DNA of 64,000 nucleotides from Bacillota bacterium. Its GTDB lineage: Bacteria > Bacillota > Desulfitobacteriia > Desulfitobacteriales > JAJXUE01. The first letter of the stretch is position 1, and each line of letters opens with the position of its first letter. The notes beneath the pieces are model-generated. The model was not told the DNA's origin and ran no database searches. It worked only from the letters and a program-made list of their open reading frames with translations. This document shows, one piece after another, positions 37,578-63,992 of this stretch. The DNA lies in contig JAJXUE010000002.1 in the NCBI GenBank assembly GCA_021783135.1, forward strand, positions 36,625 through 100,624. The letters run 5' to 3'. A program made the position numbers and the translations under genes.

Positions 37578-37589
37578 GTCTTGTCTCCT

Positions 37590-38090
37590 TTATTTCTTAG
37601 TTGTAGCCGCATTGATTTGGTTTAATAAAGTAGTAAGGCCCGTTGCTACCGTAGGATCATTATTAAACGTTTGCGCCCGCAACACATATTGCTTCGCCGT
37701 CGTAAGCTCCCGCAAATTAGCATAATTTAAAGCTGCCGCGTAAAGATATTGTGGGTTGTTGACAATAAATGGCCTTTCCAGCCTGGTTGCGGTGTACCAA
37801 TGCTCCGCTTCACTGAACTTGCCTTCTTCGGTGAGACAGTACGCATATTGCCACATTAGCATGTAGCTGTCCGGATGCGATTCAAGCAGGGAGCTGAAAA
37901 TCGGGGCAGCATCGGCAACTTTGCCCTGCTGGATCATACCGTTGGCCTGCTGATAAAGGTTATAGTAATTGGTGTATTGTGCATCCTGCTGTTGACCTAT
38001 TTCGCTGGCAACAATTAAGCAGACGATTCCGATGCAAATTAGTACAAAGAAAACTAAATTACGTGTTTTACCATTTACACTAAAATTCAT
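37590..38090 (-). CDS. Membrane-anchored TPR-like protein partnered with the Wzy_C protein
   Basis: N-terminal TM, TPR-like helical repeats; paralog of 44494-45039 (shared GQQQD motif after TM). Confidence 0.75.
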   Translation of the reverse strand: MNFSVNGKTRNLVFFVLICIGIVCLIVASEIGQQQDAQYTNYYNLYQQANGMIQQGKVADAAPIFSSLLESHPDSYMLMWQYAYCLTEEGKFSEAEHWYTATRLERPFIVNNPQYLYAAALNYANLRELTTAKQYVLRAQTFNNDPTVATGLTTLLNQINAATTKK

Positions 38091-38313: not shown

Positions 38314-39447
38314 TTACGAGCCGAACTTATTGCCGTGACAGGTACTACAGTATACCTTATTAACCATTTGCGTAGTCGGCCTATCGGTTATGAGCCTGTC
38401 AATGCTATTGCCATTGTCTTTTACAGCTGTACTCTTGCTCGCCTCCGCTGACGTGGCTGCAGAGGCAACCCCGGGTCGAATGTCGTGGCAAGCCAAGCAG
38501 TTTTGGATGCCTTTTTCCTTCTCAATCTGGCCGTGTGCCGCAATCCACGGAGTTTGATTAGCTTCTGTGCCATGATTGGGCGGCCGCTTGGTATGACAGT
38601 TCAAGCAGAATACATTTTCCCTGGCATATTGATCGACGGTCAGATTCTGATCTTGACCGGGATTCAGGAAACCATAGGAGTGGCATTTGTCGCACACCTT
38701 AATGTCCTTCTCCGCCTGAATACCGTGGTTATCGAGCCAATTAGGCATGTTCCTATGGCTGGCCGGTATCCCAATCTGACTATGGCAAGTAGTACAATTG
38801 GTTGGTTCACCCCGCTGCACATGGCACGCAATGCACGTGTCCATACGCGGACTAGAGTATGTTGGCACCATTTCTTTGGCCGCGAGCGCCACTGTCCAGT
38901 CATCAAACGGAATTACAGATGCCTTGCTCACACCACGTTCTGAAATCATGCCATGCGTTACACCCTTGTGACAATTAATACACAATACCCCTTTAGCAAT
39001 GTGCTTATCGTGAGGTATGATGATGTCCCCCGAGGGCGAGTACTGGCGATTTGCGGAGTGACACTGCAAACAGACGAGATTAGGAATGGTTTCTTCATCC
39101 CACGGATACTTAATCGGACTCGAATAGGTATGCGTGACATGCTGGTAAACCTGAACCATGGCATGCAGTTTATCTTTGATTAAATTTCCTATACCGGGAG
39201 CAATATGACAGTCAACACACGCTATCTGACTGTGGGCCGAGGCTTCCCAAGTCGTATATTCTGGACGCATTTCGTGACAGGTATTGCCGCAAAAACTTGA
39301 CTGCATCGTATATTCCAAAGCTCCTACCATTACAGCGCCAACAACTATGATGAAACCGCTGATTAGAATAATAAGCTTTAGTTTATCCTCTGTCTTTGAC
39401 AGGTCAAATTTCGGTATTTTACTTGTCATCTTTCTACCAACGGACAA
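38314..39447 (-). CDS. NapC/NirT-like decaheme c-type cytochrome, membrane anchored
   Basis: N-terminal TM, CGNTCHEMRPEYTTWEASAHSQIACVDCH; nine CXXCH plus one CX3CH; strong SD AAGGAGGTG before TTG start. Confidence 0.87.
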   Translation of the reverse strand: MSVGRKMTSKIPKFDLSKTEDKLKLIILISGFIIVVGAVMVGALEYTMQSSFCGNTCHEMRPEYTTWEASAHSQIACVDCHIAPGIGNLIKDKLHAMVQVYQHVTHTYSSPIKYPWDEETIPNLVCLQCHSANRQYSPSGDIIIPHDKHIAKGVLCINCHKGVTHGMISERGVSKASVIPFDDWTVALAAKEMVPTYSSPRMDTCIACHVQRGEPTNCTTCHSQIGIPASHRNMPNWLDNHGIQAEKDIKVCDKCHSYGFLNPGQDQNLTVDQYARENVFCLNCHTKRPPNHGTEANQTPWIAAHGQIEKEKGIQNCLACHDIRPGVASAATSAEASKSTAVKDNGNSIDRLITDRPTTQMVNKVYCSTCHGNKFGS

Positions 39448-44264: not shown

Positions 44265-44493
44265 CAGGAAGTACAACTATAAGTCCAACATCCGGACTCA
44301 CAACTGTGTAAATATTAGGTGCAGCGAGTTGGAAAGACTGCACCTAACCCCCTGTGACGCAGGAAATTAGATAAATTTGTCGAAACACTTCGGGATACTG
44401 TCGAGTTACTTATCGAAGTGCTTATCGAAGTACTTATCGAAAAATATTTTCCGAAGCATTATTTCCAAGCGTCAAGTTTATATGGGGGTCGAC

Positions 44494-45039
44494 ATGAATT
44501 TTCCGCAGTCGAGTAATCGTCACATCTCTGCCAAAGGGCGCACCACGTTGGTCAGCGCTTTGCTTGTAGGAGTATTAGTTGTATTTACAATTACTTTGCA
44601 CTTAGGTCAGCAGCAAGACAGCGTTTTTCTCAATGATAACAATCTGTTTCAAACGGCTTTGTCAGTCCAGACCCAAGACCCAACCCAAGCGGAGCCGTTG
44701 TTGCGACAATTGCTGGTGACCCATACTGACAGCTATTTACTCTTATGGGACTTGGCCGACGTCCTGGCGGCAGAGCACAAGTATGCTGAAGCGGCGCAAT
44801 ATTACACCTTGGCCCGCCACGCACGGCCGATTCTAGTATCCGACCAACAATATCTTTTGTCATATGCCACCACCCTGTTTAACCTAGGTGAGCTTAAACT
44901 AGCGCAGCAGTATTTGAGCCACGCCGGGCCCAATGTGTTCAGTTCTAACGATAACCCTCAGCTTACCCAGCAAGTTAACACGCTGCAACTGCAGATTGAC
45001 AAAACGCTTGCCAGCTCGATTGGAGGTGCCAAGCGATGA
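44494..45039 (+). CDS. Membrane-anchored TPR-like protein partnered with the Wzy_C protein
   Basis: Paralog of 37590-38090; ATG at 44494 after ATATGGGGGTCGAC (ORF track start 44377 probably too early). Confidence 0.75.
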   Translation: MNFPQSSNRHISAKGRTTLVSALLVGVLVVFTITLHLGQQQDSVFLNDNNLFQTALSVQTQDPTQAEPLLRQLLVTHTDSYLLLWDLADVLAAEHKYAEAAQYYTLARHARPILVSDQQYLLSYATTLFNLGELKLAQQYLSHAGPNVFSSNDNPQLTQQVNTLQLQIDKTLASSIGGAKR

Positions 45040-46562
45040 AACGCAAGATGAAACCTGATATCTTCATCGGCGACCGATTAATTGTCAATATCCTATTGTT
45101 GTTCCTCAGCGTATTCCCGTTAATCATGCATCCGGCACAATCTTTTATAACCAGCCCCCTCATAGTTTCTAACTGGCTAAATTCAGGTACTAAAAGCGAG
45201 TTTTATGTTCACTATAAGTTCATATTTTTACTCATAACCGCCGCTATTTTGGTCATGCTTTTCTTAGTTAAACTGTACCGAGATAACTATGAGATTACAG
45301 CTAATTACAGCAATCTTCCGTTGTTTATCTTAGTATGTGTTATTGCACTATCGGCCCTGTTTGCCAAATACAAAACTGTGGCTCTGTTCGGTCTTTGGGA
45401 TCGACATGAGGGTGCACTGACATATTGCATTTACTTTGCCTTATGCTTCATCGCTGCTAATGTACTCCCGAGTCAAAGGCAGCTAAAATTGCTTGTGTTC
45501 ACATTAACTCCATTGATTGTACTTAATGCTATGACCAGTGTCGGAGCTATTTACGGGCACAATGTTTTGCAACTACAACCGTTTAACTCGCTTTTACTCG
45601 GCAATGCTTCCGCAGGTACTATCTTTATTACAACTTTGGAAAACCCTGATTACTTAAGCGGGTTTGGCGCAGTATGCTGTGCTTTGTTCACTGTTAAGAC
45701 CTTGCTTGCGGCAAACTGGGAAGATACCGCAATTAGCCTGGTATTTACGACTCTTGCCTTCGCGATGATTCTGGCCGCAACCGCCACGAGCGGCTTTTTG
45801 ACCCTGATTGTCCTTATCCCACTTTTCATCGCCCTGATGTGGCGTAGTGGTAATCGCAAAAGGTCTGTCATTAATGGCGTCCTAATACTAGTCTGCTTTA
45901 GTTTGGTTTTGTCTCTGCTCAGTCAGCAAAATCCCACGGTGTGGAATAAGTCATTCGGATTTTTCGGTGCAACAACTGTATCGCTTGAGTCTTCACTTAA
46001 GGCGCCGGCCATTCGTACCTCGCCTCAGGCAGCTTCAGTTGCATTCTCCAAAACAACCGGTACTCAAGGAGCTGCCTCTCGAACCGGTTCACCCCCCCCA
46101 GACGACTATGCTAGCTTACCTCAGCCTGGCATGTCAGCCGGAACAGGTCGCCTGTACATCTGGCGCAAGACTATTCCCATGATTAAGCGCCACCCCCTAT
46201 TTGGCTATGGCTTAGATACCTTGGGCTATTACTTCCCCCAAAACGATCCGGTCGGAATTGCGGAAGACTTTGGCCAGTTGCAGGAAAAACCGCACGACAT
46301 GTATTTAGATATTGCCTTTGGCGCAGGTCTAATCGCCCTGTTCGCCCTTATTTACCTCTTTATCCGTCATTTCTTAGCCAATCTTGTCCTATTGCGCCAC
46401 CCGATTCAATCCGAGCAAACAGTGGTCCTACTCAGTTTGTTTGCCGGGTGGTGTGCTTATTTAATCCAAGGTTTGTTTAATGATTCGGTGCTTAGCACCG
46501 CACCCCTATTTTGGATTCTATTTGGCTTTGGTATCAGCCTACTCCGACATCGGCCTGAATAG
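45036..46562 (+). CDS. O-antigen ligase/Wzy_C-like polytopic membrane protein
   Basis: Multiple TM; GTGRLYIWRKTIPMIKRHPLFGYGLDTLGYYFPQ...EKPHDMYLDIAFGAGLIAL; paralog of 36024-37577. Confidence 0.85.
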   Translation: MKRKMKPDIFIGDRLIVNILLLFLSVFPLIMHPAQSFITSPLIVSNWLNSGTKSEFYVHYKFIFLLITAAILVMLFLVKLYRDNYEITANYSNLPLFILVCVIALSALFAKYKTVALFGLWDRHEGALTYCIYFALCFIAANVLPSQRQLKLLVFTLTPLIVLNAMTSVGAIYGHNVLQLQPFNSLLLGNASAGTIFITTLENPDYLSGFGAVCCALFTVKTLLAANWEDTAISLVFTTLAFAMILAATATSGFLTLIVLIPLFIALMWRSGNRKRSVINGVLILVCFSLVLSLLSQQNPTVWNKSFGFFGATTVSLESSLKAPAIRTSPQAASVAFSKTTGTQGAASRTGSPPPDDYASLPQPGMSAGTGRLYIWRKTIPMIKRHPLFGYGLDTLGYYFPQNDPVGIAEDFGQLQEKPHDMYLDIAFGAGLIALFALIYLFIRHFLANLVLLRHPIQSEQTVVLLSLFAGWCAYLIQGLFNDSVLSTAPLFWILFGFGISLLRHRPE

Positions 46563-48993: not shown

Positions 48994-50142
48994 TTAATTT
49001 TTGGTGCGGGTGCGATGTAGGATTCTGGCAACCCGCCGCGGATTTACACCTGAATCCCTATCTATGGTTGCATATTTTAGCCCGGACTCTCTGCTTAACT
49101 CCTGTTTTATCGCCAGTTCATCCGTCTCAGGTGCTTGATCTACTTGATCAAGCAGTAGCTGTTGTTCCGGCAGATAAAAGGCGAAATTAACCCCTTCCAG
49201 CGCGTAATTTTGCAGAATTTTACTGTTGGGAAAAATGATTTGTAAGCTTAGCCCCAGTCCGCGCGAGGGCCTTTGCGTAACTTGCACTGGTGCGTCGATA
49301 GGTGCTAAGGTTGTCTGCGACTGAGCTTCAGGTTCGGCAGTAACAGCAAAAACTGCGACAGAGTCTACCTCATTCTCTACCTCATCTTCTACCTCATCTT
49401 CTACCTCATCTTCTACCTCATCCTCTATCTCATTCTCTATCTCATCCTCTATCTCATCCTCTATCTCATCCTCTATCTCATCCTCTATCTCATCCTCTAT
49501 CTCATCCTCTATCTCATCCTCTATCTCATCCTCTATCTCATCCTCTATCTCATCCTCTATCTCATCCTCTATCGCATCCTCTATCGCATCCTCTACCTCA
49601 TCCTTACCCTTATCCTCTGCGATTGTCTGGGTGCTCTGGTTGCTCTGTGTGCTCTGCTCGCTCGACGCGAGTGGCGGCTCTGAGGTCACCACAGCAGGCT
49701 GTACATTGCTGAGCTCTAGTACCAATTCATCCTCAACTGACTCATCAAGCTCAACTACAGTTGGGTCCTCAATTGGCAGTTGCGTTATTACCGCTTCACC
49801 TTGCGGCGTAAAATCACTCGCTGGCTTTTGTTGATGTGCGACCAAGCCTATTGCCAAGATGCGCTCTAATTCTTGCGCAAAAGTTCCCAAACTCTGTTGT
49901 ACTTGGGCATCGGGCAACTTTTGGCTGATTATCTGATGCAAAATTTCCGGTAGGTAATCGTCTTGCACATCAAGCAGATCTTTCAGGTTTTGGCTCATCT
50001 GCGCTATCAAGTCGACTCCCCGGTTGACTTCCTTGTCCCGGGCACCATTTTGCAATAAACTGGCTGCAAGTGCACATTCAATTATCCGTTCCGTTGCATC
50101 GAGAATTTTCTTTTCTAAATCACGCGAATTGTTTTGGCTCAT
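48994..50142 (-). CDS. Protein of unknown function with a long acidic (IEDE)n repeat linker
   Basis: ORF with SD GGGGTGA; 20 in-frame 4-aa units [IV]E[DN][EAV] separate helical N- and basic C-terminal regions. Confidence 0.7.
   Translation of the reverse strand: MSQNNSRDLEKKILDATERIIECALAASLLQNGARDKEVNRGVDLIAQMSQNLKDLLDVQDDYLPEILHQIISQKLPDAQVQQSLGTFAQELERILAIGLVAHQQKPASDFTPQGEAVITQLPIEDPTVVELDESVEDELVLELSNVQPAVVTSEPPLASSEQSTQSNQSTQTIAEDKGKDEVEDAIEDAIEDEIEDEIEDEIEDEIEDEIEDEIEDEIEDEIEDEIEDEIEDEIENEIEDEVEDEVEDEVEDEVENEVDSVAVFAVTAEPEAQSQTTLAPIDAPVQVTQRPSRGLGLSLQIIFPNSKILQNYALEGVNFAFYLPEQQLLLDQVDQAPETDELAIKQELSRESGLKYATIDRDSGVNPRRVARILHRTRTKN
49367..49606. repeat. 12-bp in-frame minisatellite, 20 units (240 bp)
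   Basis: acctcattctct/atctcatcctct units; lines 49441-49500 and 49501-49560 are identical. Confidence 0.95.
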
Positions 50143-50222: not shown

Positions 50223-52262
50223 CTAGCCGGATAGATGTAGGTCTTGCAGATATTGTCTAACTTCGCCTGCTAAGGCTTGAGCCTGCGCAATGCTGCTGGG
50301 AATATCGATCGGTCCGCAACACGCACCGAGTGGGAAAATCCCTGATTTGGCCGTTGCCGTTAAAAACCCGTCCCGATTTAGCTCCATACCGCTTAACGCC
50401 GCAAGCTTAGTAATACCCGCAGGCGGGATTAAAGCCGGCGCCAAAACCAGCAAATCATACGCGCCCTGGATATCAGTTAGCCCTTCCCCTAGCGCATATT
50501 GCACGGTTAAGTAATCAAAGGGATAACGAAATACTTTGGCTGGGATGGCTCGAATAAATTTGATTTGCTCCAGATGCCGTCCTGTTTGCCAAAAACGCGT
50601 AAAATCAGACCCCACGCCTTGCATATCTTGATAAAAAACGTCAATGTGCACTTCAGGTTTGTGATAACGCAATAATCTGGTCAGTTCAATTGTATGCTTG
50701 CAGCACACTCCGGAACAATAGTTATGACCGATATGGGAATTTCGGCTCCCGACACACTGGACAAAACCTACCCGTTTTACCTCGGGGCCAATGACCTGTT
50801 CTATACTGCCGGTGCGGCTGAGCTCACGCTCCAAGTCTTGGGAGGTTATTATATTTTTATGAACGCCATAGCCAAATTCGCGCAACCGGGATGCGTCAAA
50901 TAAGTCAAAGCCAATCGCCATAACCACTGCATTGACCTCAAGGGTGGTTTCCACTCCCAAATCTGCACCGCGTGAACCATGGGTAAAACGCACGTCAACC
51001 GCCAGCTTGCCCCCTTCCCCGCGCATCCGCGCAACCTCACTATGTAGGACAAGCTTGATGTTCGGGTTGGCTTCAACCTGGGTTTTGAGCTCATGCGCCA
51101 CGCACGCAAAGCAGTGTGTACAACTCTCGACAGCTTTACAGTGGTAGTTGAGCGTTGAACCGCCAATTGTTTCTGCTTTGTCAACAATAAAAACTCCACA
51201 GCCCGCCCGTGCCAATTCCAGGGCTACTGACATTCCGGCAATTCCGCCTCCGATTACCAATACCTTCGCGCCGGCGATGCTGTGGTGTGACACCTTGACC
51301 ATGGGACGCGGTGAAAGATCGGCTGTGCTCCCCGAGGCATAACGCGCTAAATGGGTAGCAGCTACACGCGCTTCAATCAACTCGTTCACGTTGTTGGTGT
51401 GGCCATGGCATGTGCCGACAAAGTAAATTCCCTGTCGGGTGGAGCGACCGGGTGCTAAATGGTTGGGATCGGTTCGAAAGAAGCCGCTAGGTTCTATTTC
51501 CGTCTGCAAAATGGCGTTTAATGCTGCTGTCTGGGGGGCAGGTATGTCCAGCTCAGGTGCCACTAGTACGTCAACCAAAGCACGTACAGACTGATTTAAT
51601 CCGGCATCCTGGTAAGTAACACTTACTCCCAATACATTGACATGTACCTCCAACTTGCCTACGTAGCGATTAAACCGCACGCCGGCTTGACGGGCCCGCT
51701 GATACAAAAACTCTTGGTCAGGGGCTGCCACTTGGAGCTCCTGAAAAAAGAATTCTATTTTAGCTGCAAATTTCTCGCGCAGTTCCAAGGCAAGCTGAAG
51801 TGCCTTAGCTGTGGTTTGAACATCCTGGGTCCCGCACTCGCCTAAAACAAAGGCCACGGCACGTTTAGCCCAATTCTTCTCGCTGTCAAAACTGCTAAGT
51901 CCGCAGATTTCGGGTGACTGCGGCAGGTCTAGCGCAGGGTCAATTATTTTGGGTGCGTTTAAGGCTACGACAATGCCGCCTACACCAAATTTGAGCTCGC
52001 CACCCGTTCCGCTCAAGGTAACCCAAAAGCGTCCGGCTTGACCTTTGAGCGCCGTAACGCGATACCGAGGCAATTGCGTTACGCCCGCAGCTGTGGGCAA
52101 GGTACCTTCGTCCACCTGAATCACCGGTTGTTGGCACCGGATCACCTGGGCTGCAGTCATTGCGGCTGACCCGTTGCCAATTACAAGTATGCTGGAGTAT
52201 ACTTCAAGCTTTTGTTCCGGTGGCGGTTGCAAACCGGAACAAGCTAATTGCGGGTCTAGCAT
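50223..52262 (-). CDS. hdrA: HdrA-like FAD/Fe-S oxidoreductase
   Basis: VLVIGGGIAGMSVALELARAGCGVFIVDKAETIGGST; GFVQCVGSRN...NYCSGVCCKHTIELT; SD GGAGGTGG before ATG at 52262. Confidence 0.85.
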   Translation of the reverse strand: MLDPQLACSGLQPPPEQKLEVYSSILVIGNGSAAMTAAQVIRCQQPVIQVDEGTLPTAAGVTQLPRYRVTALKGQAGRFWVTLSGTGGELKFGVGGIVVALNAPKIIDPALDLPQSPEICGLSSFDSEKNWAKRAVAFVLGECGTQDVQTTAKALQLALELREKFAAKIEFFFQELQVAAPDQEFLYQRARQAGVRFNRYVGKLEVHVNVLGVSVTYQDAGLNQSVRALVDVLVAPELDIPAPQTAALNAILQTEIEPSGFFRTDPNHLAPGRSTRQGIYFVGTCHGHTNNVNELIEARVAATHLARYASGSTADLSPRPMVKVSHHSIAGAKVLVIGGGIAGMSVALELARAGCGVFIVDKAETIGGSTLNYHCKAVESCTHCFACVAHELKTQVEANPNIKLVLHSEVARMRGEGGKLAVDVRFTHGSRGADLGVETTLEVNAVVMAIGFDLFDASRLREFGYGVHKNIITSQDLERELSRTGSIEQVIGPEVKRVGFVQCVGSRNSHIGHNYCSGVCCKHTIELTRLLRYHKPEVHIDVFYQDMQGVGSDFTRFWQTGRHLEQIKFIRAIPAKVFRYPFDYLTVQYALGEGLTDIQGAYDLLVLAPALIPPAGITKLAALSGMELNRDGFLTATAKSGIFPLGACCGPIDIPSSIAQAQALAGEVRQYLQDLHLSG

Positions 52263-52290
52263 CGAAACCACCTCCAGCACAATTTAAGTA

Positions 52291-52346: not shown

Positions 52347-53159
<813 letters not shown>

Positions 53160-53182: not shown

Positions 53183-54151
53183 TTAGGCGTTAGAAACCAT
53201 CAACTCATCGATATTCTTTTTAACGAGACGTACTGCTTCCGGGTTGCGCATTAACAATAAACTTGCGCCAGTTTGCAGCAAGGTAGTTGCAGTCATAGCT
53301 TCCCAGAGAATGGCCCGATCTTTGAGCTCGCCCCAACCGGGGAATTCGTCGACATCGACATTTGCTTCTTTGGCACGGTTAGCCTCATAGCCAACAGTAC
53401 AAACCATCGGCATGGCTAACATTTTGTCATTAACCAAAGAACCCAAACGAGCACGCTCCATAATGGAATATGCATATTCGATACCAAAGCCCAGACCGCC
53501 AATCATCGGGTCAATAACAATTTTGTCCAGTGGTAAACCCATTTCGTTAATTAGAATGTTGAGCTGCTTGCAGATGTTAATATCCAACGGCGAGCGTGCG
53601 ATAATGGAATGTTTGTGAACCATGCAGGCTGCAACAATGGACTTATAGTTATCTTGCTGTGCTAAACCTAACAGCAGGTTTTCACCTGCGGCTGCCTCAG
53701 CAACTGCGGCCATTACCTCATTGTCTTTGTCGTCATCTTCGCAGCCAACAATGACCAAAGGAACGCCTACTGCCGCCAAAACGTCTTTTACGGTTTGGGC
53801 GCACTGCTCAGGGGTACGGTTTGCTCCTTCCGGATGAGCTCCGGTTAGTTTGAGGTAGATTAAGTCGGCCCCAAACTCCTCAACACATTTTTTCGCCCAA
53901 GCGGCGGGATCATTGATGACATCCATAAACGGCTCCTTGAGGAGGGGATGCCAATCAGGCTCGACATCATTTACTTCCATGGCTACAGCCGGACGATTGA
54001 CTACTTCACCTTCAAAGTGGAGGAAAGGTAAGGTGCTGTCGCCGCCAATAGTGATGGTGTGGGTACGTGTCCCCCCTTGTTCCGGGGTGGCTCCGATAAC
54101 TACCTGGCCAACACGGCTCTGCCACTTCTCTTTAACAATAGCTACTGCCAT
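53183..54151 (-). CDS. acsD: CO dehydrogenase/acetyl-CoA synthase corrinoid iron-sulfur protein, small subunit
   Basis: [57 protein letters not shown]. Confidence 0.93.
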
Positions 54152-54182: not shown

Positions 54183-54938
54183 TTATAATCTTGCCTTTTG
54201 GATCATTCTTGCCACTGACTGTACGGCAATTGAGGTATCGGGTAGGTCAAACAAGGGCTTACCTTGTACGTCTTGAGATACAATTAAGGGATCAAGTGGC
54301 ATGTCACCGATTAATTCCAGCCCGGTTTTGCCAATTTCTTCATCTAATTGGTCCAAAGCACCTTCCGTCGTCTTAGTGACCACCAGATAAACTTCCTTCA
54401 CGGCGGATTTGAGACCTTTAATTAAGTCATAAACCCTTCCGGCCGAACGAATGCCTCGCGCCGAACAGTCGCTAATTACAAACATTACATCAATTTGTGG
54501 TATGGTGCGCCGGCTGATATGCTCTAGACCGGCTTCCGTATCCACCACCACATAGTCGTAGTTACTGCTTAAATTTTCCAAGTGTCGGCGCAACAGGTCG
54601 TTAGCGTAACAGTAGCAGCCCGGTCCTTGTGGCCCGCCCATTACCAACAGGTCGATTTGTTTGGATTCCACCAAGGATTGATTGAGTCTGTATTCCACAA
54701 ACACATCCTTGGGCATTCCTTCCGGAATAGCCTTGGGGTCTTTAGTTTGTTCCAACAACTCGGAGATGGTAATATCTACGTCCATACCCAAGGCTTCATT
54801 CAAATTAGCATTGGGATCGGCGTCGACGGCCAAGATTGAGACTCCTTTGTTACTGTGAACTAAATATTTCAACATTAAGGAGGTAAAGGTAGTTTTACCT
54901 ACTCCACCCTTCCCGGCTACTGCAATATACTTGGCCAT
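54183..54938 (-). CDS. cooC: CooC-like nickel-insertion/maturation ATPase
   Basis: [47 protein letters not shown]. Confidence 0.87.
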
Positions 54939-54955: not shown

Positions 54956-56866
54956 TCAACCTTCCACCGTCGGAAAAAGAGAAAGATCGGTGTGCGGTAA
55001 AAATAGTGCCGAAACAAACTCATCCATAAAATCATTTCCTGCTGAAAGCTCAAGATAGGTCATTTTCTTACCTAACTCTTCCGCTTCCTTCCAGGCGGCC
55101 CGCGAAAGCAGGGCTAAATGGGCACCCTTAACGGAACTATTGCCGATAAAGTCATACTTTTCCACAGGCAAGTCCGGCAGTAAGCCGATTTGGACCGAGT
55201 CTTTGACGTTAAGATAATTACCAAAACCACCGGCAATGACAATCTTTTCGATCATCTCCACCTCTAAGCTCACCATCCGCAGTAAAGAACGAATCCCCGC
55301 GTAGATTGCTCCTTTGGCTCGAATCAAATTCTTGACGTCGTTCTCGGTGATAACTATATCCTTATCACCTGGGGTCTGATGCGCCCATGCCAGAACAAAT
55401 TCCTTATCCTCATGTGTTTGTCTATAACGCGGTGTTTGCAAGTCCTTCTGGAAATTGCCGGCGCGGTCGATGATACCTGCTTCGCGCAGCTTCGCCAGGC
55501 AGTCCACCAAACCCGAGCCACAGATGCCAATTGGCTGTTTGCCACCGACAACTTTAAAGGTTACATCAAAGGTTTGGGCATCGATTTCTACCCGTTCAAT
55601 TGCACCGGGCATAGCGCGCATGCCAAAGGTAATTCCGCCGCCTTCAAAACAAGGTCCGGCCGAGCAGGCACAGGCTACCATCCAATCCCTGTTGCCGAGC
55701 ACAATTTCCCCATTGGTGCCAATATCGATGAAGAGAATTAAATCATCGCCATTGGACATATCCGTCACCAGAGCTCCGGAAACAATATCGCCGCCGACAT
55801 AACTTGCGACTGAGGGGAAATTAAGCACAGCACCGTGGGGATTCATGTGTAGTCCCAAGTCCGCTGCTCGAAGCGGCGGTACAGAATTCATCGTGGGAAT
55901 GTACGGTTCAAGCCGCACGTATTTGGGCGATACTCCCAAGAAAAGCTGGGTCATTGTGGTATTGCCGGCTGCAACTGCCCCGACAATTTCCTCCGGCTTA
56001 ACTTGATATTTGGTGCAAAGGGAATCGACAAGTTCGTTAATCGTACCAATTATCGCAGCTTGAATTTCCGCCAAGTTACCCGGGGCGTCCACAGCATAGA
56101 CAATGCGGGTGATAACATCATCGCCGTAGCGAGCCTGTTTGTTATACGTACCCTGTTTGTCAATAATTGCTCCGGTTGCCAGATTAACCAAGTACACCAC
56201 CACTGTCGTAGTACCGATGTCGATAGCTAGTCCATACGGCGGGTTAACTTGTTCTCCCGGCTCCACATTAACCAACTCATAGCGGTCATTAAGTTCGACT
56301 AAGGTTGCCGTAACTTGCCATTTGCCGACGCGCAACGCGTCAGGCAGCTGCCGCAAAACACCCAAGGGAATATCAATTTTCCCTTCACCTAAATGTTTTT
56401 TTAGTTCAATGTTCAGCTTGGGCCAGTCTGCACCGTTTTCAGTCAGGGACGGCTCCGGTAGGTGGACAGAAATCTTGCGGGCGAGGGGCGTTAGCCCATA
56501 TTGACTCAACAGATTTATCTCTTTTTCGCTGAGTAAGCCGTTGGCAGAACCCATGAGCACTTGGTGCTCGGCTAAACGCGACTCCAGCGGAACCTCAACA
56601 GTGATGTCCCCCATAATCTTCGTCTTACAAGCCAGGTGAACCCCGGCATCAATTTTTTCACGCGAAAGATTTCCGGTAGACTCTACTTCAACCTCACCTG
56701 ACACCAATATGACCTTACAGGCCCCGCAAGTCCCTTTGCCGCCACAACCGGATTTTAATTGGATGCCGGCTTTACCGGCTGCCAGCAAAATTGTGGTGGC
56801 AGACGAAACCTGAACTGTCAAGTTGTCGGGTAAGAAACGAACATTACACTGGTCCACAGCTCTCAC
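54956..56866 (-). CDS. acsV: Reductive activator of corrinoid/iron-sulfur protein (2Fe-2S + ASKHA ATPase)
   Basis: N-terminal ferredoxin motif LKSGCGGKGTCGACKV; AIDIGTTTVVVYLVNL; IDIGTNGEIVLGN; between acsC and cooC/acsD. Confidence 0.9.
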   Translation of the reverse strand: MRAVDQCNVRFLPDNLTVQVSSATTILLAAGKAGIQLKSGCGGKGTCGACKVILVSGEVEVESTGNLSREKIDAGVHLACKTKIMGDITVEVPLESRLAEHQVLMGSANGLLSEKEINLLSQYGLTPLARKISVHLPEPSLTENGADWPKLNIELKKHLGEGKIDIPLGVLRQLPDALRVGKWQVTATLVELNDRYELVNVEPGEQVNPPYGLAIDIGTTTVVVYLVNLATGAIIDKQGTYNKQARYGDDVITRIVYAVDAPGNLAEIQAAIIGTINELVDSLCTKYQVKPEEIVGAVAAGNTTMTQLFLGVSPKYVRLEPYIPTMNSVPPLRAADLGLHMNPHGAVLNFPSVASYVGGDIVSGALVTDMSNGDDLILFIDIGTNGEIVLGNRDWMVACACSAGPCFEGGGITFGMRAMPGAIERVEIDAQTFDVTFKVVGGKQPIGICGSGLVDCLAKLREAGIIDRAGNFQKDLQTPRYRQTHEDKEFVLAWAHQTPGDKDIVITENDVKNLIRAKGAIYAGIRSLLRMVSLEVEMIEKIVIAGGFGNYLNVKDSVQIGLLPDLPVEKYDFIGNSSVKGAHLALLSRAAWKEAEELGKKMTYLELSAGNDFMDEFVSALFLPHTDLSLFPTVEG

Positions 56867-56906: not shown

Positions 56907-58238
56907 CTAAGCGCCAAAGTTACTTTTAGCAAACGAAACAATCCCGGAAGCTTCGCGCGGTCCTACCACTACTTTCCAGCCTGATAGTTCTTGCAGCTTA
57001 CCGGAGATAACGGCAACGTAGCCTGGAATTACCACGTTTTTGTGGTTAACCTTGTCAGCTACTTCGAATTTTTGCATAAGTTCAGCTACCTTTTCCGGCT
57101 CAAACTTACCTGCGGCATATGCTGTGAGAACGGAGGTTCCATCCGTATCCACGGCGAGAATATAGCTTGGAATCCGGGTTGCTTCAACTTCCCCTTGTAC
57201 TGTGTAGTACGTAAGCGAGAAATTAGTTGTAACGTAAACCGGAGAATCCGCACTGACTTCGCCCACTGCGTGCAGTTTAGGTTCAACCTGAATCGGTTTT
57301 TGTGGATCAGTGTAGAGGTTTTGTCTGATTGTCAGTAAGGGCAGGATGTGTTCCTTCTTGCTGGCATTCAGCACAACCATGCTGGCATACTTAGCTACAT
57401 AAACACCGGCTTGAATAATCTCATCCAAGGGGTTTTCCTCTTGCGTAAATGCAGCTGCCGGATAACCGAAAAGACGGAATTTCTTTTTGATGGCCTGACG
57501 GCGCAGTTGTGTCAGATCAGCCAAGACTCTGGAGGTGGTACGGCTGCCCGAATCAAGTACCAGGTCTTTATAGCCCAAAGCAGTAATTTTCTCAACCAGC
57601 TCGGCCAAACTATCCAAGTTTTCGCCGCGTACAAGTAACGGTACTCCGGCTCCTTTAGCTACTTCAACCATTGCTTCATAGTTAGCAGCTGTGGCAACAC
57701 CAACTAGTGGCTTGCGATCAGCAATTGGCGCCAAGGCGCTTTTTAATGCAGCAGCATCTTCGGTCAGTAAGACCAAGGATAGTTGCGAATTTGCGGCTAC
57801 CTCTTGCACAGCAGTGGCAAATTTGGCGGCATCGCCAGACTCGTTGTCAATGGCAATACCCTGAACGGTATACTGTAAACCTACCCGTTCGAAAGTTAGG
57901 TCGTTAATCTCAGCTACTTTGGCCGCAATTTCAGCCTGGGAAAGTTTGTCCGAAACTCGCACTACGATGGTAGTTTCATGAAAGAACGTTTTTTCGTGGC
58001 GGAACATTACGGTCTCATCACCCAGCGCAGCTCCCGCACCAAATTTAATAAGTTTAATTGGCGGAGCAGAAGCGGCATCGAGATTTTCTTTAGCTTCCGC
58101 GGAAACGTAAGGGCAACTATCCAAAGCAGCTTTACCGGAAGCTAACGCCATGGCAAATGCTAAACAAGTCGGCGGGCCGCACTCCCCGCAGTTTTTTTTC
58201 GGCAACTGCTTATAAATGTCCAATCCTGTTAGAGCCAT
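56907..58238 (-). CDS. acsC: CO dehydrogenase/acetyl-CoA synthase corrinoid iron-sulfur protein, large subunit
   Basis: MALTGLDIYKQLPKKNCGECGPPTCLAFAMALASGKAALDSCPYVS 4Fe-4S motif. Confidence 0.93.
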   Translation of the reverse strand: MALTGLDIYKQLPKKNCGECGPPTCLAFAMALASGKAALDSCPYVSAEAKENLDAASAPPIKLIKFGAGAALGDETVMFRHEKTFFHETTIVVRVSDKLSQAEIAAKVAEINDLTFERVGLQYTVQGIAIDNESGDAAKFATAVQEVAANSQLSLVLLTEDAAALKSALAPIADRKPLVGVATAANYEAMVEVAKGAGVPLLVRGENLDSLAELVEKITALGYKDLVLDSGSRTTSRVLADLTQLRRQAIKKKFRLFGYPAAAFTQEENPLDEIIQAGVYVAKYASMVVLNASKKEHILPLLTIRQNLYTDPQKPIQVEPKLHAVGEVSADSPVYVTTNFSLTYYTVQGEVEATRIPSYILAVDTDGTSVLTAYAAGKFEPEKVAELMQKFEVADKVNHKNVVIPGYVAVISGKLQELSGWKVVVGPREASGIVSFAKSNFGA

Positions 58239-58355
58239 TAGTTCTAACTCTCCTTTCTCCCTAGTCACAATTTTTTATTTAGGCTCAGCTTGGCAGCGGT
58301 TGACCGTCTTGCCGACAGCCAACCACCCCCAAGCGAGTCTTACCCGCAAATTGAA

Positions 58356-60533
58356 TTACATCAATGGTTCCATGGTTAAGGCCGGATGTCCTTTTTCTTC
58401 TAAGAACGGCAAAATCTCTTCTACCGTGCTGCCGACAGTTTCGTCAGCAATCTTATCAATAAAGTCTTCCCCTAAGCCTTCTTCTTTAGCCCGCTCGACA
58501 AAATCATCATGCAAGAACTCTTTTAATTCTTTCGGCATCCAGATGATGCGAGCCATCCCGCCGTCAGCGGGGATAAACTTCTTACTTACCAGGTAAGTAC
58601 GACCTATACCCATGAAGCCTGGTGTTTGCAAGCCACCGCCTACGGTGCCGGCCAGGGTGGAGAAGGTCATGCCACAGGGAGTCATCCCGCTGTGCTCACG
58701 CGTGGTAATCATCAGGCCGTTAGCCTCAGGCACGATAGCCATAATAGCTTCGAAACAACCGCAAGAGGTCATGGGCCGATCCATCAGGGTGTAGAGATTT
58801 ACTTCTTCCAAAGTATTGTTAGAAGCTGGACGCAGATACTCATTGACAGATTGCCACATACCGCGTTCATTGTCGATAGCTGTCCCTTTAAGGATTGGCT
58901 GGTTAGGTCCGGTTGGGGTAATTTCGAAGGCAGCTTTGGCATCGAGCCAAGAAACTGCGCCACAGAGTCCAACCCGCTCAGGGGTTACCACACAGACGTG
59001 GTTTGGCGCAAAGGACTGGCAGAGGAGACAGGAATAAAACTCTTCAACTTTGTCGTCAGTAAGCGTTTTCATACGAGCATCACGCGCACGATAGCGCTCC
59101 CTGGCGAGTTTAATCTTTTCGTCCACTAAGGCTTGGTCCGTGATTAAGGTTACTTGGACGCGGTCAACGATTGAAGGAAATTCTTGCTTATATTTGTGCA
59201 ACAACAAGGTTCCTAAATCTGCAATCTTCCAGCCTTTGGCCACAGCATCTTTGCTGAAACGTAACCAGCAGAGATCACGCTGCGCAACGTGCCATATACC
59301 TTCGCCATAGTTGGAGAAGTAGTGAACCCGACGTTCCAGCACGCCTTCAAAGTCTTCTTGCATTTTACGACCGTAAATATCAATCATAATGCCAAGCGGC
59401 AATTTGTCGCCTTCTTTGATATCCGTGATTTCCGGTCCGATAACAGTAACCTTGCCATCTTCGATTTCGTCCGGGCCAACCATATGCACTAATTCAAATG
59501 CTGTGGTGCGGCCACCGCCGAATTCAACATAAGTGTCACCTTTACGGATAGTCTCACCCTCAAAGGCCGGACCTACGTTAACCGGTACAGGAACATCAAC
59601 GCTGGTTAACTTGATGCCGCGCACTTCAAAGGCCAACGGTAAAATCTTATCATAATCAGGCTCTGAGATATACCAGTCGTTGAGCTGCATATCCTTCGAA
59701 AGTTCCTGGTCGGTAATGACCGGGAAGCCCATGAAGATAGTGCCCATTTCGGCAGCGATTTTAACGTCATCCAACTCACCTAAATGGAGGATAAAGGCTA
59801 AAACGCGACGGCGTTGATAGTCGCGGTGCAGCTCACGTTCGCCGGGAGCAACCCCACCGAAAGCCATACCGGCCCGGAAAGCATAGTTGGCAGCGTGCAC
59901 TACTTGGGTAAAGTTACCGACTGGGAAAGCGATGTAGTCGATACCCAACTTAGCGTTTTGCTCTAACAATTGCTCAATAATTTCATCCGATAAGAACATC
60001 ATGAAACCTTGGCCCATCAGCTTATCGACCAATTTCTTGGCCGCTGCACTGTCTTTGGCACGACCCAGGATTACGGCCACACCAGGGATGGTCCAGTCCA
60101 CCATTTTGATCCCGAACTTACGAACTACCGGGTCACCCAAAAAGCCCGTCCAAGGACCTGCCTTAGGCTCCTCACCCCGCAAGTAGTTCAGCACTTCAAT
60201 CGTTTCAGCTGCGTATAAAACTGCTTCGCCCCACAGCATGGCGTTTTCCATGTTCAAGCCGGATTTGACCTGTTCCCGCATCCGACTCATGATGGGTACC
60301 AACTCACCCAGCTTGGTAACCGCTTCTCCGGATAGGCAACGCATAACAGGGAGATAGTAAGCGGTATCAGGATAGCTGATCGCCGCGTTCGGTCCAAACT
60401 CCTTCAGGGCCTGAGTCAGGAGAATTTCGGCGTAACTAAGTGCAATCACAGTTCCGTCGTAAGCCCGTTTAAATAACTTAATAGGTTCTTCGCCTTCTTT
60501 AACAGCGCCCTCGTAAATTTTATCTAAAGCCAT
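58356..60533 (-). CDS. acsB: Acetyl-CoA synthase subunit
   Basis: 725 aa; SCLLCQSFAPNHVCVVTPERVGLCGAVSWLDAKAAFEI (A-cluster motif); MDRPMTSCGCFEAI. Confidence 0.95.
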   Translation of the reverse strand: MALDKIYEGAVKEGEEPIKLFKRAYDGTVIALSYAEILLTQALKEFGPNAAISYPDTAYYLPVMRCLSGEAVTKLGELVPIMSRMREQVKSGLNMENAMLWGEAVLYAAETIEVLNYLRGEEPKAGPWTGFLGDPVVRKFGIKMVDWTIPGVAVILGRAKDSAAAKKLVDKLMGQGFMMFLSDEIIEQLLEQNAKLGIDYIAFPVGNFTQVVHAANYAFRAGMAFGGVAPGERELHRDYQRRRVLAFILHLGELDDVKIAAEMGTIFMGFPVITDQELSKDMQLNDWYISEPDYDKILPLAFEVRGIKLTSVDVPVPVNVGPAFEGETIRKGDTYVEFGGGRTTAFELVHMVGPDEIEDGKVTVIGPEITDIKEGDKLPLGIMIDIYGRKMQEDFEGVLERRVHYFSNYGEGIWHVAQRDLCWLRFSKDAVAKGWKIADLGTLLLHKYKQEFPSIVDRVQVTLITDQALVDEKIKLARERYRARDARMKTLTDDKVEEFYSCLLCQSFAPNHVCVVTPERVGLCGAVSWLDAKAAFEITPTGPNQPILKGTAIDNERGMWQSVNEYLRPASNNTLEEVNLYTLMDRPMTSCGCFEAIMAIVPEANGLMITTREHSGMTPCGMTFSTLAGTVGGGLQTPGFMGIGRTYLVSKKFIPADGGMARIIWMPKELKEFLHDDFVERAKEEGLGEDFIDKIADETVGSTVEEILPFLEEKGHPALTMEPLM

Positions 60534-60557: not shown

Positions 60558-62576
60558 TTAATATCCCTGAGCCAGAGATGTTGCGTACTTTTCGGCAGCG
60601 TCTCTGTGTACGCCGAGTTTCCAGCTTCTATATTCCAGGGCATTAATCAGTTTCTTGGCCGCAACTTCGGAATCCATTTCCAGGATAAAGTGTCCGCCAA
60701 AAACGTCATGGGCAATTTGAGTAGCTACACCATATACCAGGTCACTGCCTTCCAATGGCGGCATGGTGCCGACATGAACCGGCAGACCCATGGTGACAGC
60801 CCAAGTACCGATGGAAATTGATTTTTCATGGGTTGCTTCCGGTGCGCTGGCTACAAACGGAACCTTAGGCACATCCACACCTAGTTCATTGGCCATAGCA
60901 GTAACCAAATCTGCAGCACGGGTATTGTCAACACAAGCACCCATGTGGAATACCAACGGCAGTCCGCCGGTAGTCAACTTATTAGCTGCTTCTACACGCT
61001 TCGTGAACGCTTTGAGGCCAGGACCGGCATATTTATCTACTGCATCAGGTGCCATTAATCCGGCCTTAGCGGCGGCGCCAGCTGAGCAACCGGTGGCGAC
61101 CATCAACACGTCGTTAGCAGCCAACTCTTTCATAATGGTCAAGTGGCTCTTATCTTGGAACTGCTTCAAGTTGTTGCAGCCTGCCAAGAGGCACACACCC
61201 TTAATTTCGCCGGAGAGGATAGCATCAGTCAAGACGCTGATTGGGCGGTCCGGATTGATGGCTGCAAATAAATCGAGCATGGCTTCCAGACTAAAGCCTG
61301 CCACAACTTTATTTTTGTGCTGCGGAATGTGAATTTTGTTTAAATCACGATTTTTGAAGTTATCAATGGAGAGCCTGACTATCGCCATCGCATCTTCCAT
61401 TGCGGTTGTTTCATCAAACGGGTAGTGGATAGCGCCCGGGAATTTGGCAATTTCGTTCGTGGTAATGATTCTGGTATGGAAACATTCCGCTGCCGTAGTC
61501 ACGGAAGGCATCATACATTGAATGTCGAGTACCATCGAATCTAAGACCCCGGTCATAATCGCCAACTCTTGGCTGGATTGGTTAGTTGCAATATACACGC
61601 CTTTACGCATCAAAAGCTCATGACCGGTACAGCACAGACCGACGATATTGATGCCCTTGGCACCTGCTGCAATGGCTTCGCTTTCCAGCTTGTGGGCAGC
61701 GGATACTACCATTTCACTGACCAACGGGTTGTGACCGTGTACAGCGATGTTAATTTTGTCTTCCTCAAGCACGCCTAAGTTAGCTTCCGAAACAAGGGGT
61801 TTCGGGGTGCCAAACAATATATCCGAAATATCTGTGGCAATGTGCATACCGGTGTAGTCGGCCAAGGAAGCCTTCAGCCCGCCAAAAATGATATTAACAG
61901 GGTCAGAGTCAACACCCATAGCAGTTTGGGCCAACAATTGCACAACGGAACGGTCAATTGCAACCGGTCCAACGTTGGTGGCCTTAAATTTATCTTGGCG
62001 CCCTTTAGTAATAGTTGTAGTCAAGAAAGTACAGGTTTGATCGCCGTAACGACCATAATCGTCCAACGCTTCAATGGCGACTTCTTTGGCAATTTCTATA
62101 TCTGTTTTGCCTTCAGTGGTAATACCGATGCGCTTGGCTACAGCTTGTAGTTTTGCGGGATCTGCGATCTTGTAGTCCGGCGCTTCGCCGTCTGCCAAGT
62201 GCAAGAGGGTGCGGGCGATGTGGCGGCCATGGTCGGAGTGGGACGAAGTACCGCCGGCAATAAACCTGACGAGGTTTCTTGCTACAATCGTATTGGCATC
62301 AGCTCCGCACATACCGCGGCTGGCTGGGCCGTCATCCGCTTTGATCCGGCAGGGTCCTTGAATACAAATCCGGCAGCAAATACCTTTATAACCGAATTGG
62401 CACTGGGGTTGTTGGGCTACGGCCCGGTCATAGGCTGTATAAACACCATGTTCTTGGGCAACTTTCAACATTTCCAAAGCTGCCGGGTCAACTGTCCGCT
62501 CACGATTTTTCGGTTCCTCCACGCGGGGCACGCTACTGCTTCTGGCCGTAAAGTCCAGATCACTAAATCTTGGCAT
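60558..62576 (-). CDS. acsA: Carbon monoxide dehydrogenase catalytic subunit
   Basis: CQFGYKGICCRICIQGPCRIKADDGPASRGMCGADANTIVARNLVR; INIVGLCCTGHELLMRKG. Confidence 0.95.
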   Translation of the reverse strand: MPRFSDLDFTARSSSVPRVEEPKNRERTVDPAALEMLKVAQEHGVYTAYDRAVAQQPQCQFGYKGICCRICIQGPCRIKADDGPASRGMCGADANTIVARNLVRFIAGGTSSHSDHGRHIARTLLHLADGEAPDYKIADPAKLQAVAKRIGITTEGKTDIEIAKEVAIEALDDYGRYGDQTCTFLTTTITKGRQDKFKATNVGPVAIDRSVVQLLAQTAMGVDSDPVNIIFGGLKASLADYTGMHIATDISDILFGTPKPLVSEANLGVLEEDKINIAVHGHNPLVSEMVVSAAHKLESEAIAAGAKGINIVGLCCTGHELLMRKGVYIATNQSSQELAIMTGVLDSMVLDIQCMMPSVTTAAECFHTRIITTNEIAKFPGAIHYPFDETTAMEDAMAIVRLSIDNFKNRDLNKIHIPQHKNKVVAGFSLEAMLDLFAAINPDRPISVLTDAILSGEIKGVCLLAGCNNLKQFQDKSHLTIMKELAANDVLMVATGCSAGAAAKAGLMAPDAVDKYAGPGLKAFTKRVEAANKLTTGGLPLVFHMGACVDNTRAADLVTAMANELGVDVPKVPFVASAPEATHEKSISIGTWAVTMGLPVHVGTMPPLEGSDLVYGVATQIAHDVFGGHFILEMDSEVAAKKLINALEYRSWKLGVHRDAAEKYATSLAQGY

Positions 62577-62637: not shown

Positions 62638-63414
62638 TCATTTTCCACCCCCAGCAGCCTCTGCCACAATCTTACGAAAAATATCCTCTAAAGCAGACCC
62701 TAAAGCACCACCCGGCAAATCCAGGTTTCCTTCTTCTAGAGCTGCATCAGCGAGGTCGTCGCTATAGGGCAAAACCCCTAAAAGTTCGCCCGGTTCCAAG
62801 CTGGCTTGGAGAAAATCAGCTTCCTTTTGGTTTCTAATCTTATTGCCAATTACTCTAACCTTAGGAACTCCCAGTTCCTTGGCGAGTTGTTTAACAACCT
62901 TTGCGGTTTGCACGCTTACTTTGGTAGGCTCAGTTACTATGAATAGAGCATCGACTCCGCGTGCGGTACCCCTGGTTAACTGTTCAATACCTGCCCCCAT
63001 ATCGAGAATGACTGTTTCCTTGGCGCCAAGCAAAAGCGAGTTAACTAAAGCGTGTAAAAAGGTGTTCTCCTTACAGTAACAAGCCGTGCCGCCTTGTTTG
63101 ACATTGCCCATACGCAAAAAGTGAATATGACCCATGGCCACGCTGTGACTAATGAGTAAATCATCTACCTTGGGGTTTAGAGGGAAAAAAGCACCTTCCG
63201 GGCCCATTCTCTCGGCAATCAATTCCTGCATGGCCACAACCGGTTTGAGCTTGGCCAAGATTTCCTCCGGCAGACCCAAAGTTGTACCCAGGCTGGCATC
63301 GGGGTCAGCGTCGACGGCGTACACCTCGTAACCTTCCCGGGCAAATAGTTTAGCTAAATTTGCGGAAAATGTAGTTTTACCCACTCCGCCTTTACCGGAT
63401 ACTGCAACTTTCAC
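62638..63414 (-). CDS. cooC: CooC-type nickel-insertion ATPase
   Basis: [67 protein letters not shown] before GTG. Confidence 0.92.
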   Translation of the reverse strand: MKVAVSGKGGVGKTTFSANLAKLFAREGYEVYAVDADPDASLGTTLGLPEEILAKLKPVVAMQELIAERMGPEGAFFPLNPKVDDLLISHSVAMGHIHFLRMGNVKQGGTACYCKENTFLHALVNSLLLGAKETVILDMGAGIEQLTRGTARGVDALFIVTEPTKVSVQTAKVVKQLAKELGVPKVRVIGNKIRNQKEADFLQASLEPGELLGVLPYSDDLADAALEEGNLDLPGGALGSALEDIFRKIVAEAAGGGK

Positions 63415-63450
63415 TGTAACGCCCTCCTTCTACCGCCAGGCAACGTCTCG

Positions 63451-63496
63451 TAGTTAGTAATAGTAGTTAGTAATAGTAGTTAGTAATAGTAGTTGG
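63451..63496. repeat. 13-bp tandem repeat (about 3.5 copies of TAGTTAGTAATAG) in the cooC 5' leader
   Basis: Three consecutive exact 13-bp copies from 63451 plus a partial copy. Confidence 0.9.
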
Positions 63497-63580
63497 TTCA
63501 TTAATGAAGTTTCCGAGGCAAATTAAACAACTAATAATATTTAGTTTTGCACATATATTCGTGACGGTCAAGCATTATCC

Positions 63581-63596
63581 TTCTGAAGTTTCAGAA
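63581..63596. promoter_or_regulatory. Perfect inverted repeat TTCTGAA-GT-TTCAGAA in the CODH/ACS leader
   Basis: 7-bp perfect arms with 2-bp spacer. Confidence 0.4.
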
Positions 63597-63788
63597 AATT
63601 TACTTTTTTCTTCTATGGTTGATTTTTGGAGGTGAGCGGTACTATTGTTCTGATTAACGGTTTCTACTTATGAATGCTTCCTTCCTGCTTAGTGAAAAAA
63701 AAGACTTAGTTTTTTATCTATTATGAATTATTTATAAATTAAAATTAATCACATAAAGTTTAATTTTCCACAGCAAAAATGCACAAAA

Positions 63789-63820
63789 ATAAAAGGCCTC
63801 TCAATTAAGGAAGAGGTCTT
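63789..63820 (-). terminator. Intrinsic terminator of the SAM riboswitch expression platform
   Basis: Minus strand AAGACCTCT-TCCTTAATTG-AGAGGCCTTTTATTTTT. Confidence 0.85.
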
Positions 63821-63836
63821 AAAGTCTGAGTCGTCC

Positions 63837-63945
63837 TCTTCTCATCTTGCAGAATCTTGCTCTGTAGGATATGGCACCAATTCACATTTCATGCGGGTTG
63901 CCGGGCTTCACAGGGCCAATACCTCCACCGCACTTGATAAGAAGA
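63837..63945 (-). ncRNA. SAM-I (S-box) riboswitch aptamer
   Basis: Minus strand TCTTCTTATCAAGTGCGGTGGAGGTATTGGCCCTGTGAAGCCCGGCAACC...GGTGCCATATCCTACAGAGCAAGATTCTGCAAGATGAGAAGA; 10-bp P1 with one G-U; 3' P1 GAAGAGG can pair with CCTCTTC of the terminator. Confidence 0.93.
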
Positions 63946-63964
63946 ATTCTATTTAACTAGCTAT

Positions 63965-63992
63965 ATTATAGAATATTTACTTTATTTGTCAA
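63965..63992 (-). promoter_or_regulatory. Sigma-A promoter upstream of the SAM riboswitch
   Basis: Minus strand TTGACA - 16 bp - TATAAT, both perfect consensus. Confidence 0.85.

Follow-up and report, generated by a model that had tools for sequence, protein, structure and literature searches.

We found that a SAM-I riboswitch (S-box) with its own sigma-A-type promoter stands upstream of the CODH/ACS operon in the draft genome of an uncultured anaerobe. The riboswitch class is known, and the novelty is its position before this operon. Our tentative explanation is that this CODH/ACS-CFeSP operon is under the SAM riboswitch in its role as a methionine operon, because in this lineage CFeSP would be the methyl donor of the methionine synthase MesB. 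As to the mechanism, we consider the case evenly balanced for SAM-OFF attenuation of an added promoter, which would boost CFeSP and AcsE at low SAM. The window, that is, the whole 64-kb stretch of DNA analysed, corresponds to positions 36625-100624 of contig C51 in a genome (G000) of 2.71 Mb, 67 contigs and 96.7% completeness.

All parts of a transcriptional attenuator are present (Table 1). The promoter is the sole exact match to TTGACA-16-TATAAT in the window, where 0.05 matches are expected from shuffles. The aptamer covers the RF00162 model completely (1-108) and scores 74.9 bits against a gathering score of 44.4; with a local model it scores 93.9 bits, and the alignment behind that model includes the aptamer itself. 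The P1 helix has about 11 bp and a free energy of -13.8 kcal/mol. By pairing, the P1, antiterminator and terminator helices are mutually exclusive. Taken alone, the terminator hairpin is no stronger than shuffles. The first-pass annotation had described the promoter, a complete S-box with a 10-bp P1, the GAAGAGG/CCTCTTC antiterminator, an intrinsic terminator and the order of the genes downstream. Our analysis reproduces this description, apart from the slightly longer P1.

Profile searches with the open reading frames of the window place cooC-acsA-acsB-acsC-acsV-cooC-acsD-acsE directly after the S-box leader, all on the minus strand. The first cooC has orthologs with 83-84% identity in the sister genomes. 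On the same strand, degV (PF02645) lies upstream of the S-box, just beyond the window edge. Immediately 3' of acsE there is a gene for an HdrA-like flavoprotein (50223-52280), likely in the same operon, and the 382-aa protein encoded at 48994-50142, in which acidic, DEIE-like repeats form a long run, gave no NCBIfam match. Farther away, the window encodes a multihaem c-type cytochrome with many CxxCH motifs (38314-39447). Near it are two look-alikes of membrane O-antigen ligases, each beside a small TPR-like protein (36024-38090 and 44377-46562).

Table 1. Features of the S-box, the leader and the acs operon (positions within the window)
Feature	Position	Strand	Evidence or remark
Sigma-A-type promoter TTGACA-16-TATAAT of the S-box transcript	63965..63992	-	exact consensus
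SAM-I riboswitch aptamer (S-box)	63839..63943	-	RF00162, full model
3' P1 / antiterminator strand GAAGAGG	63835..63841	-	perfect complement of CCTCTTC 63816-63810; duplex -11.2 kcal/mol
Intrinsic terminator	63785..63820	-	6 bp + mismatch + 3 bp, then U-rich tail; -8.2 kcal/mol
Non-coding block conserved with the sister genus	63554..63715	-	78% identity
Sigma-H-type promoter AGGA-N17-GAAT, AGGATAATGCTTGACCGTCACGAAT	63557..63581	-	167 nt upstream of cooC; inside the conserved block
Perfect 13-nt tandem repeat, x3.5	63450..63494	.	leader; follows the sigma-H-type promoter, precedes the cooC ribosome-binding site
cooC/acsF-type P-loop ATPase, operon gene 1	62638..63414	-	Pfam CbiA/ParA; precedes acsA
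acsA (CO dehydrogenase)	60558..62576	-	TIGR01702
acsB (acetyl-CoA synthase)	58356..60533	-	NF040764
acsC (CFeSP large subunit)	56907..58268	-	NF003195
acsV-like corrinoid reactivation protein	54956..56866	-	NF040756, 706.9 bits, under its cut-off of 800
Second cooC-type ATPase	54183..54938	-	profile match and Pfam
acsD (CFeSP small subunit)	53183..54151	-	NF003376
acsE (methyl-THF:CFeSP methyltransferase)	52347..53156	-	NF005719

The other S-boxes of the genome belong to methionine genes. There are three S-boxes in the whole genome: that of acs, one before hom and the gene of a 355-aa protein (contig C35), and one before metY (contig C56). The distance from S-box to start codon is about 74 nt for hom and about 143 nt for metY. 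Neither the MetH-type domain PF02574 nor the MetE catalytic domain PF01717 had a match in G000 or in the sister genomes G001 and G002, and the controls matched. A methyl-THF pool common to AcsE and methionine synthase, as supposed in the first-pass annotation, loses its ground, since no MetH or MetE was found in the genome.

The 355-aa protein shares 64-66% identity with its sister homologs and has no match in Pfam, NCBIfam or PDB. A profile of the family matched neither PDB nor a core-MetE protein. The protein carries Ser15, His232-x-Cys234, Asp253 (19 residues on) and Cys328, that is, the zinc ligands H-x-C, D and C together with Ser15 that characterize MesB. The published MesB positions are 15/214/216/235/311, the third zinc ligand being Asp instead of Glu (PMC7857596; PMC7005905). 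Residue spacing, genome context and the absence of alternatives suggest that this protein is MesB. MesB is a folate-independent methionine synthase, and its predicted methyl donor is CFeSP (AcsC/AcsD), a prediction based on distribution and on apparent mesB-acsCD operons in some methanogens (PMC7857596). In Desulfitobacterium, to which the named relatives in this study are related, MesB is likewise the one candidate methionine synthase (PMC7857596, PMC7005905). Methyl-CFeSP is a more likely branch point between acs and methionine synthesis than methyl-THF. If CFeSP is the MesB donor, then acsC, acsD and acsE are methionine genes, and the S-boxes of hom-mesB, metY and acs would form a single methionine regulon. 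SAM control of acs is plausible because the organism seems to draw the methyl group of methionine from an acs-encoded protein.

We compared the locus with those of relatives. Upstream of cooC, degV occurs in 28 of the 35 named relatives with enough upstream sequence, and the degV-acs synteny is, judging by this gene order, old. A local model from 26 S-boxes detected none at 40 named cooC loci, each searched over up to 6 kb upstream. Among the S-boxes listed, none lies within 10 kb upstream of acsB in about 118 other AcsB-bearing genomes (drawn from 61 relatives plus another 80 genomes selected for AcsB or cooC). This comparison of coordinates was made by eye, weak matches are lost by the fast filters, and some genomes are limited by contig ends. 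The search for an S-box upstream of cooC/acsA in relatives, proposed with the first-pass annotation, thus yielded none in those that can be judged. The nearest same-contig S-boxes among those listed are 11 to 49 kb from acsB; in G137, the S-box 11 kb downstream of acsB heads an hcyB-type operon. The statement in the first-pass annotation that no established example is known of an S-box before CODH/ACS agrees with our search of open-access papers, which gave no S-box with a Wood-Ljungdahl, CFeSP or CODH/ACS operon.

In the sister G001, the stretch from degV to cooC can be joined from contigs C4 and C60, which share an identical overlap of 126 nt. This interval contains no S-box. A degenerate S-box was rejected, since Rfam gave no match there even at E values up to 5. 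Where our genome has the S-box, contig C4 (L132) shows a -10-like element and a strong hairpin with a run of T's after it (GGCCTTTTCCGCACGGAAAGGCTTTTTATTTT), which is possibly the terminator of degV or a novel leader. The contig of the sister G002 begins about 240 nt upstream of cooC, and the S-box site is outside its sequence. An assembly chimera in our genome is unlikely because in G001, too, the site lies between degV and the cooC-proximal block. Since the S-box was seen once, in one genome, and in none of the judged relatives, a lineage-specific gain is the best reading, and the acs S-box is probably a recent extra control.

We also assessed whether the switch is intact. The residues for SAM contact, P1 and the kink-turn of the SAM-I riboswitch are listed in PMC3764141. 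Those of SAM contact and P1 (A6, U7, G11, C44, A45, U57, G58 and U88) are unchanged, as are the kink-turn G.A pairs (G19/A20/G35/A36). Positions of tertiary contacts are changed: A12U (J1/2), G23U and A62U (P2b-J3/4). With both G23 and A62 replaced by U, the A62-G23-C29 triple, which ties J3/4 to P2b, is lost. A12 and this triple are highly conserved in SAM-I and not strictly defining, and the three changes may lower the SAM affinity, with class membership by covariance model unaffected. The acs S-box departs six times from columns that are at least 92% conserved (five times in the core), and it has the lowest score among the full-length S-boxes listed in the 61-genome set. Its terminator is weaker by about 7 kcal/mol or more than those of five other S-boxes of the family, which range from -15 to -20 kcal/mol. 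In the same genome, the values are -18.5 kcal/mol for metY and -17.3 kcal/mol for hom; in the sister they are -15 to -20 kcal/mol. P1 and the antiterminator duplex of the acs S-box are strong. The weak terminator and the two altered tertiary contacts make decay a real rival, and the acs S-box is a leaky switch or a decaying one.

It is therefore necessary to consider a decaying orphan: a copy of a metY-type S-box, or an S-box whose met gene was lost, lying between degV and acs and producing a short RNA with no effect on acs, which the sigma-H-type promoter described below would drive. We consider this unlikely, yet it carries weight. Besides the departures from the conserved columns, the weak terminator and the absence from the acs site of relatives, it is favoured by the origin of the element, whose closest relative is the metY S-box of the sister (80% identity; 74% to the metY S-box of its own genome). 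In addition, metX and the hcyB-type (COG1900-like) operon, each headed by an S-box in G001 and G002 (L070, L069), had no match in G000. An orphan does not readily explain why the promoter keeps the exact consensus and why P1, the antiterminator complementarity and the SAM-contact residues are intact, nor why the S-box precedes the operon that encodes CFeSP, from which the only candidate methionine synthase is predicted to take methyl groups. A met gene lost between the S-box and cooC, named in the first-pass annotation as a sign of an orphan riboswitch, was looked for and rejected: the downstream half of the intergenic region is the ancestral acs leader, and since only about 80 AT-rich nt are left up to the terminator, no gene remnant fits.

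The leader from the terminator to cooC is 382 nt long, without a credible gene. A structured RNA in its part with the conserved block is not indicated, as this folds worse than shuffles (z +1.67). The block contains a sigma-H-type promoter, assigned by AGGA and GAAT with a spacer of 17-18 nt and by conservation upstream of orthologs. AGGA-N17-GAAT is found in the 400 nt before cooC in 28 of 39 relatives, versus 3% of shuffles; when the intergenic region of our genome was shuffled 5000 times, 58 of the shuffles contained it. In Sporomusa sphaeroides, SigH promoters have been mapped at Wood-Ljungdahl genes, acsA among them, and in Moorella, Carboxydothermus, Thermacetogenium and others the motif precedes Wood-Ljungdahl clusters whose carbonyl-branch genes are in the same order (PMC12456013). 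The motif and its conservation make it very likely that the acs operon is transcribed from a promoter of its own, located 3' of the S-box terminator. Several Desulfosporosinus cooC loci (e.g. L090, L092, L094 and L099) have a first AGGA-N17-GAAT near -95 and a second about 330 nt upstream of cooC, which suggests tandem sigma-H-type promoters. The 13-nt tandem repeat of the leader is absent in the sister.

Because this conserved promoter stands between the switch and cooC, the S-box is at most an auxiliary input and no gate. The promoter is compatible with S-box read-through as an added input. We detected no second terminator between the S-box and cooC, so read-through from the S-box would reach acs. 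The first-pass annotation had taken the S-box as the main gate of the carbonyl branch, coupling acetyl-CoA synthesis to SAM via shared methyl-THF. Its account of placement and anatomy stood, including the strand, the gene order and the lack of an intervening terminator or gene. The gating itself became improbable: the conserved sigma-H-type promoter lies between 63430 and 63780, where by its own account a separate promoter would refute the idea, and counts against exclusive control by the S-box (compare PMC12456013), the terminator is weak, the S-box was not found at this site in any relative that can be judged and no methyl-THF-dependent methionine synthase was found. Very improbable, in our view, is that the short S-box RNA left by termination works as a trans-acting small RNA, or that the S-box promoter mainly interferes with the sigma-H-type promoter by read-through. 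The promoter, aptamer and terminator do form a free-standing unit, and antisense and interfering SAM riboswitches are known (PMC9943018), but the orientation is sense to acs and there is no conservation. Control of an unannotated short peptide, suggested by a leader that is long in comparison with hom and metY, is hardly credible, as the longest same-strand ORF of the leader has 34 aa and a TTG start, and the sigma-H-type promoter accounts for the conserved block.

We return to the reading of the acs S-box as an added methionine control. The old intergenic region between degV and acs would have gained, in this lineage alone, a SAM-I riboswitch with its own sigma-A promoter. At low SAM, the 3' strand of P1 would pair with the 5' arm of the terminator, and the polymerase would pass 63790, read the leader into cooC-acs across the sigma-H-type region and raise CFeSP and AcsE. 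At high SAM, P1 would close, and the weak, probably leaky terminator would cut the read-through. The sigma-H-type promoter would maintain a SAM-independent supply for carbon metabolism. The purpose would be methionine, not acetyl-CoA, with a MesB-like synthase fed by CFeSP (AcsC/AcsD) that is charged by AcsE. The complete S-box, the exact promoter, the exclusive helices, the intact SAM-contact residues and the clear path through the leader support this reading; against it, the sister G001 has the same MesB-like setup without an S-box at acs. The sequence itself shows the anatomy, the sigma-H motif, the lack of the S-box in relatives and of MetH/MetE matches, and the targets of the other S-boxes, whereas SAM binding, read-through into acs, the identity of MesB and its use of CFeSP are inferred.

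Should transcripts indeed read through into acs, central carbon metabolism would be coupled to the SAM status, which is sensible only if CFeSP feeds methionine synthesis. It would be the first riboswitch link of the Wood-Ljungdahl carbonyl branch to SAM. It would also be regulatory evidence for the CFeSP-to-MesB hypothesis, a prediction for MesB organisms (PMC7857596), on which the acs locus gives a concrete genetic handle. The conserved promoter downstream of the terminator is also a caution that an S-box before an operon need not be its main switch.

In comparison with known SAM-I attenuators (RF00162), the S-box here has the common aptamer fold, P1, exclusive antiterminator and terminator, and a promoter directly upstream. 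It differs from them in its target, the CODH/ACS-CFeSP operon in place of an annotated methionine gene, and in its long leader, weak terminator and second promoter in between. The SAM riboswitch of the C. acetobutylicum ubiG-mccBA operon (PMC9943018) is likewise in an unusual place, but it is antisense and at the 3' end, whereas the S-box here is sense and upstream. The sigma-H-type promoter resembles those of the Sporomusa sphaeroides Wood-Ljungdahl clusters (PMC12456013) in the AGGA/GAAT motif, the 17-nt spacer and the position upstream of an acs cluster of the same order; unlike them, it is known from sequence and has an S-box promoter added upstream. As in the published MesB systems (PMC7857596, PMC7005905), the zinc/homocysteine residue pattern with Asp belongs to the sole methionine synthase candidate of a Wood-Ljungdahl organism. 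Unlike in those systems, for which we found no such report in the literature, there is an S-box here at each of three loci: hom-mesB-like, metY and the acs operon.
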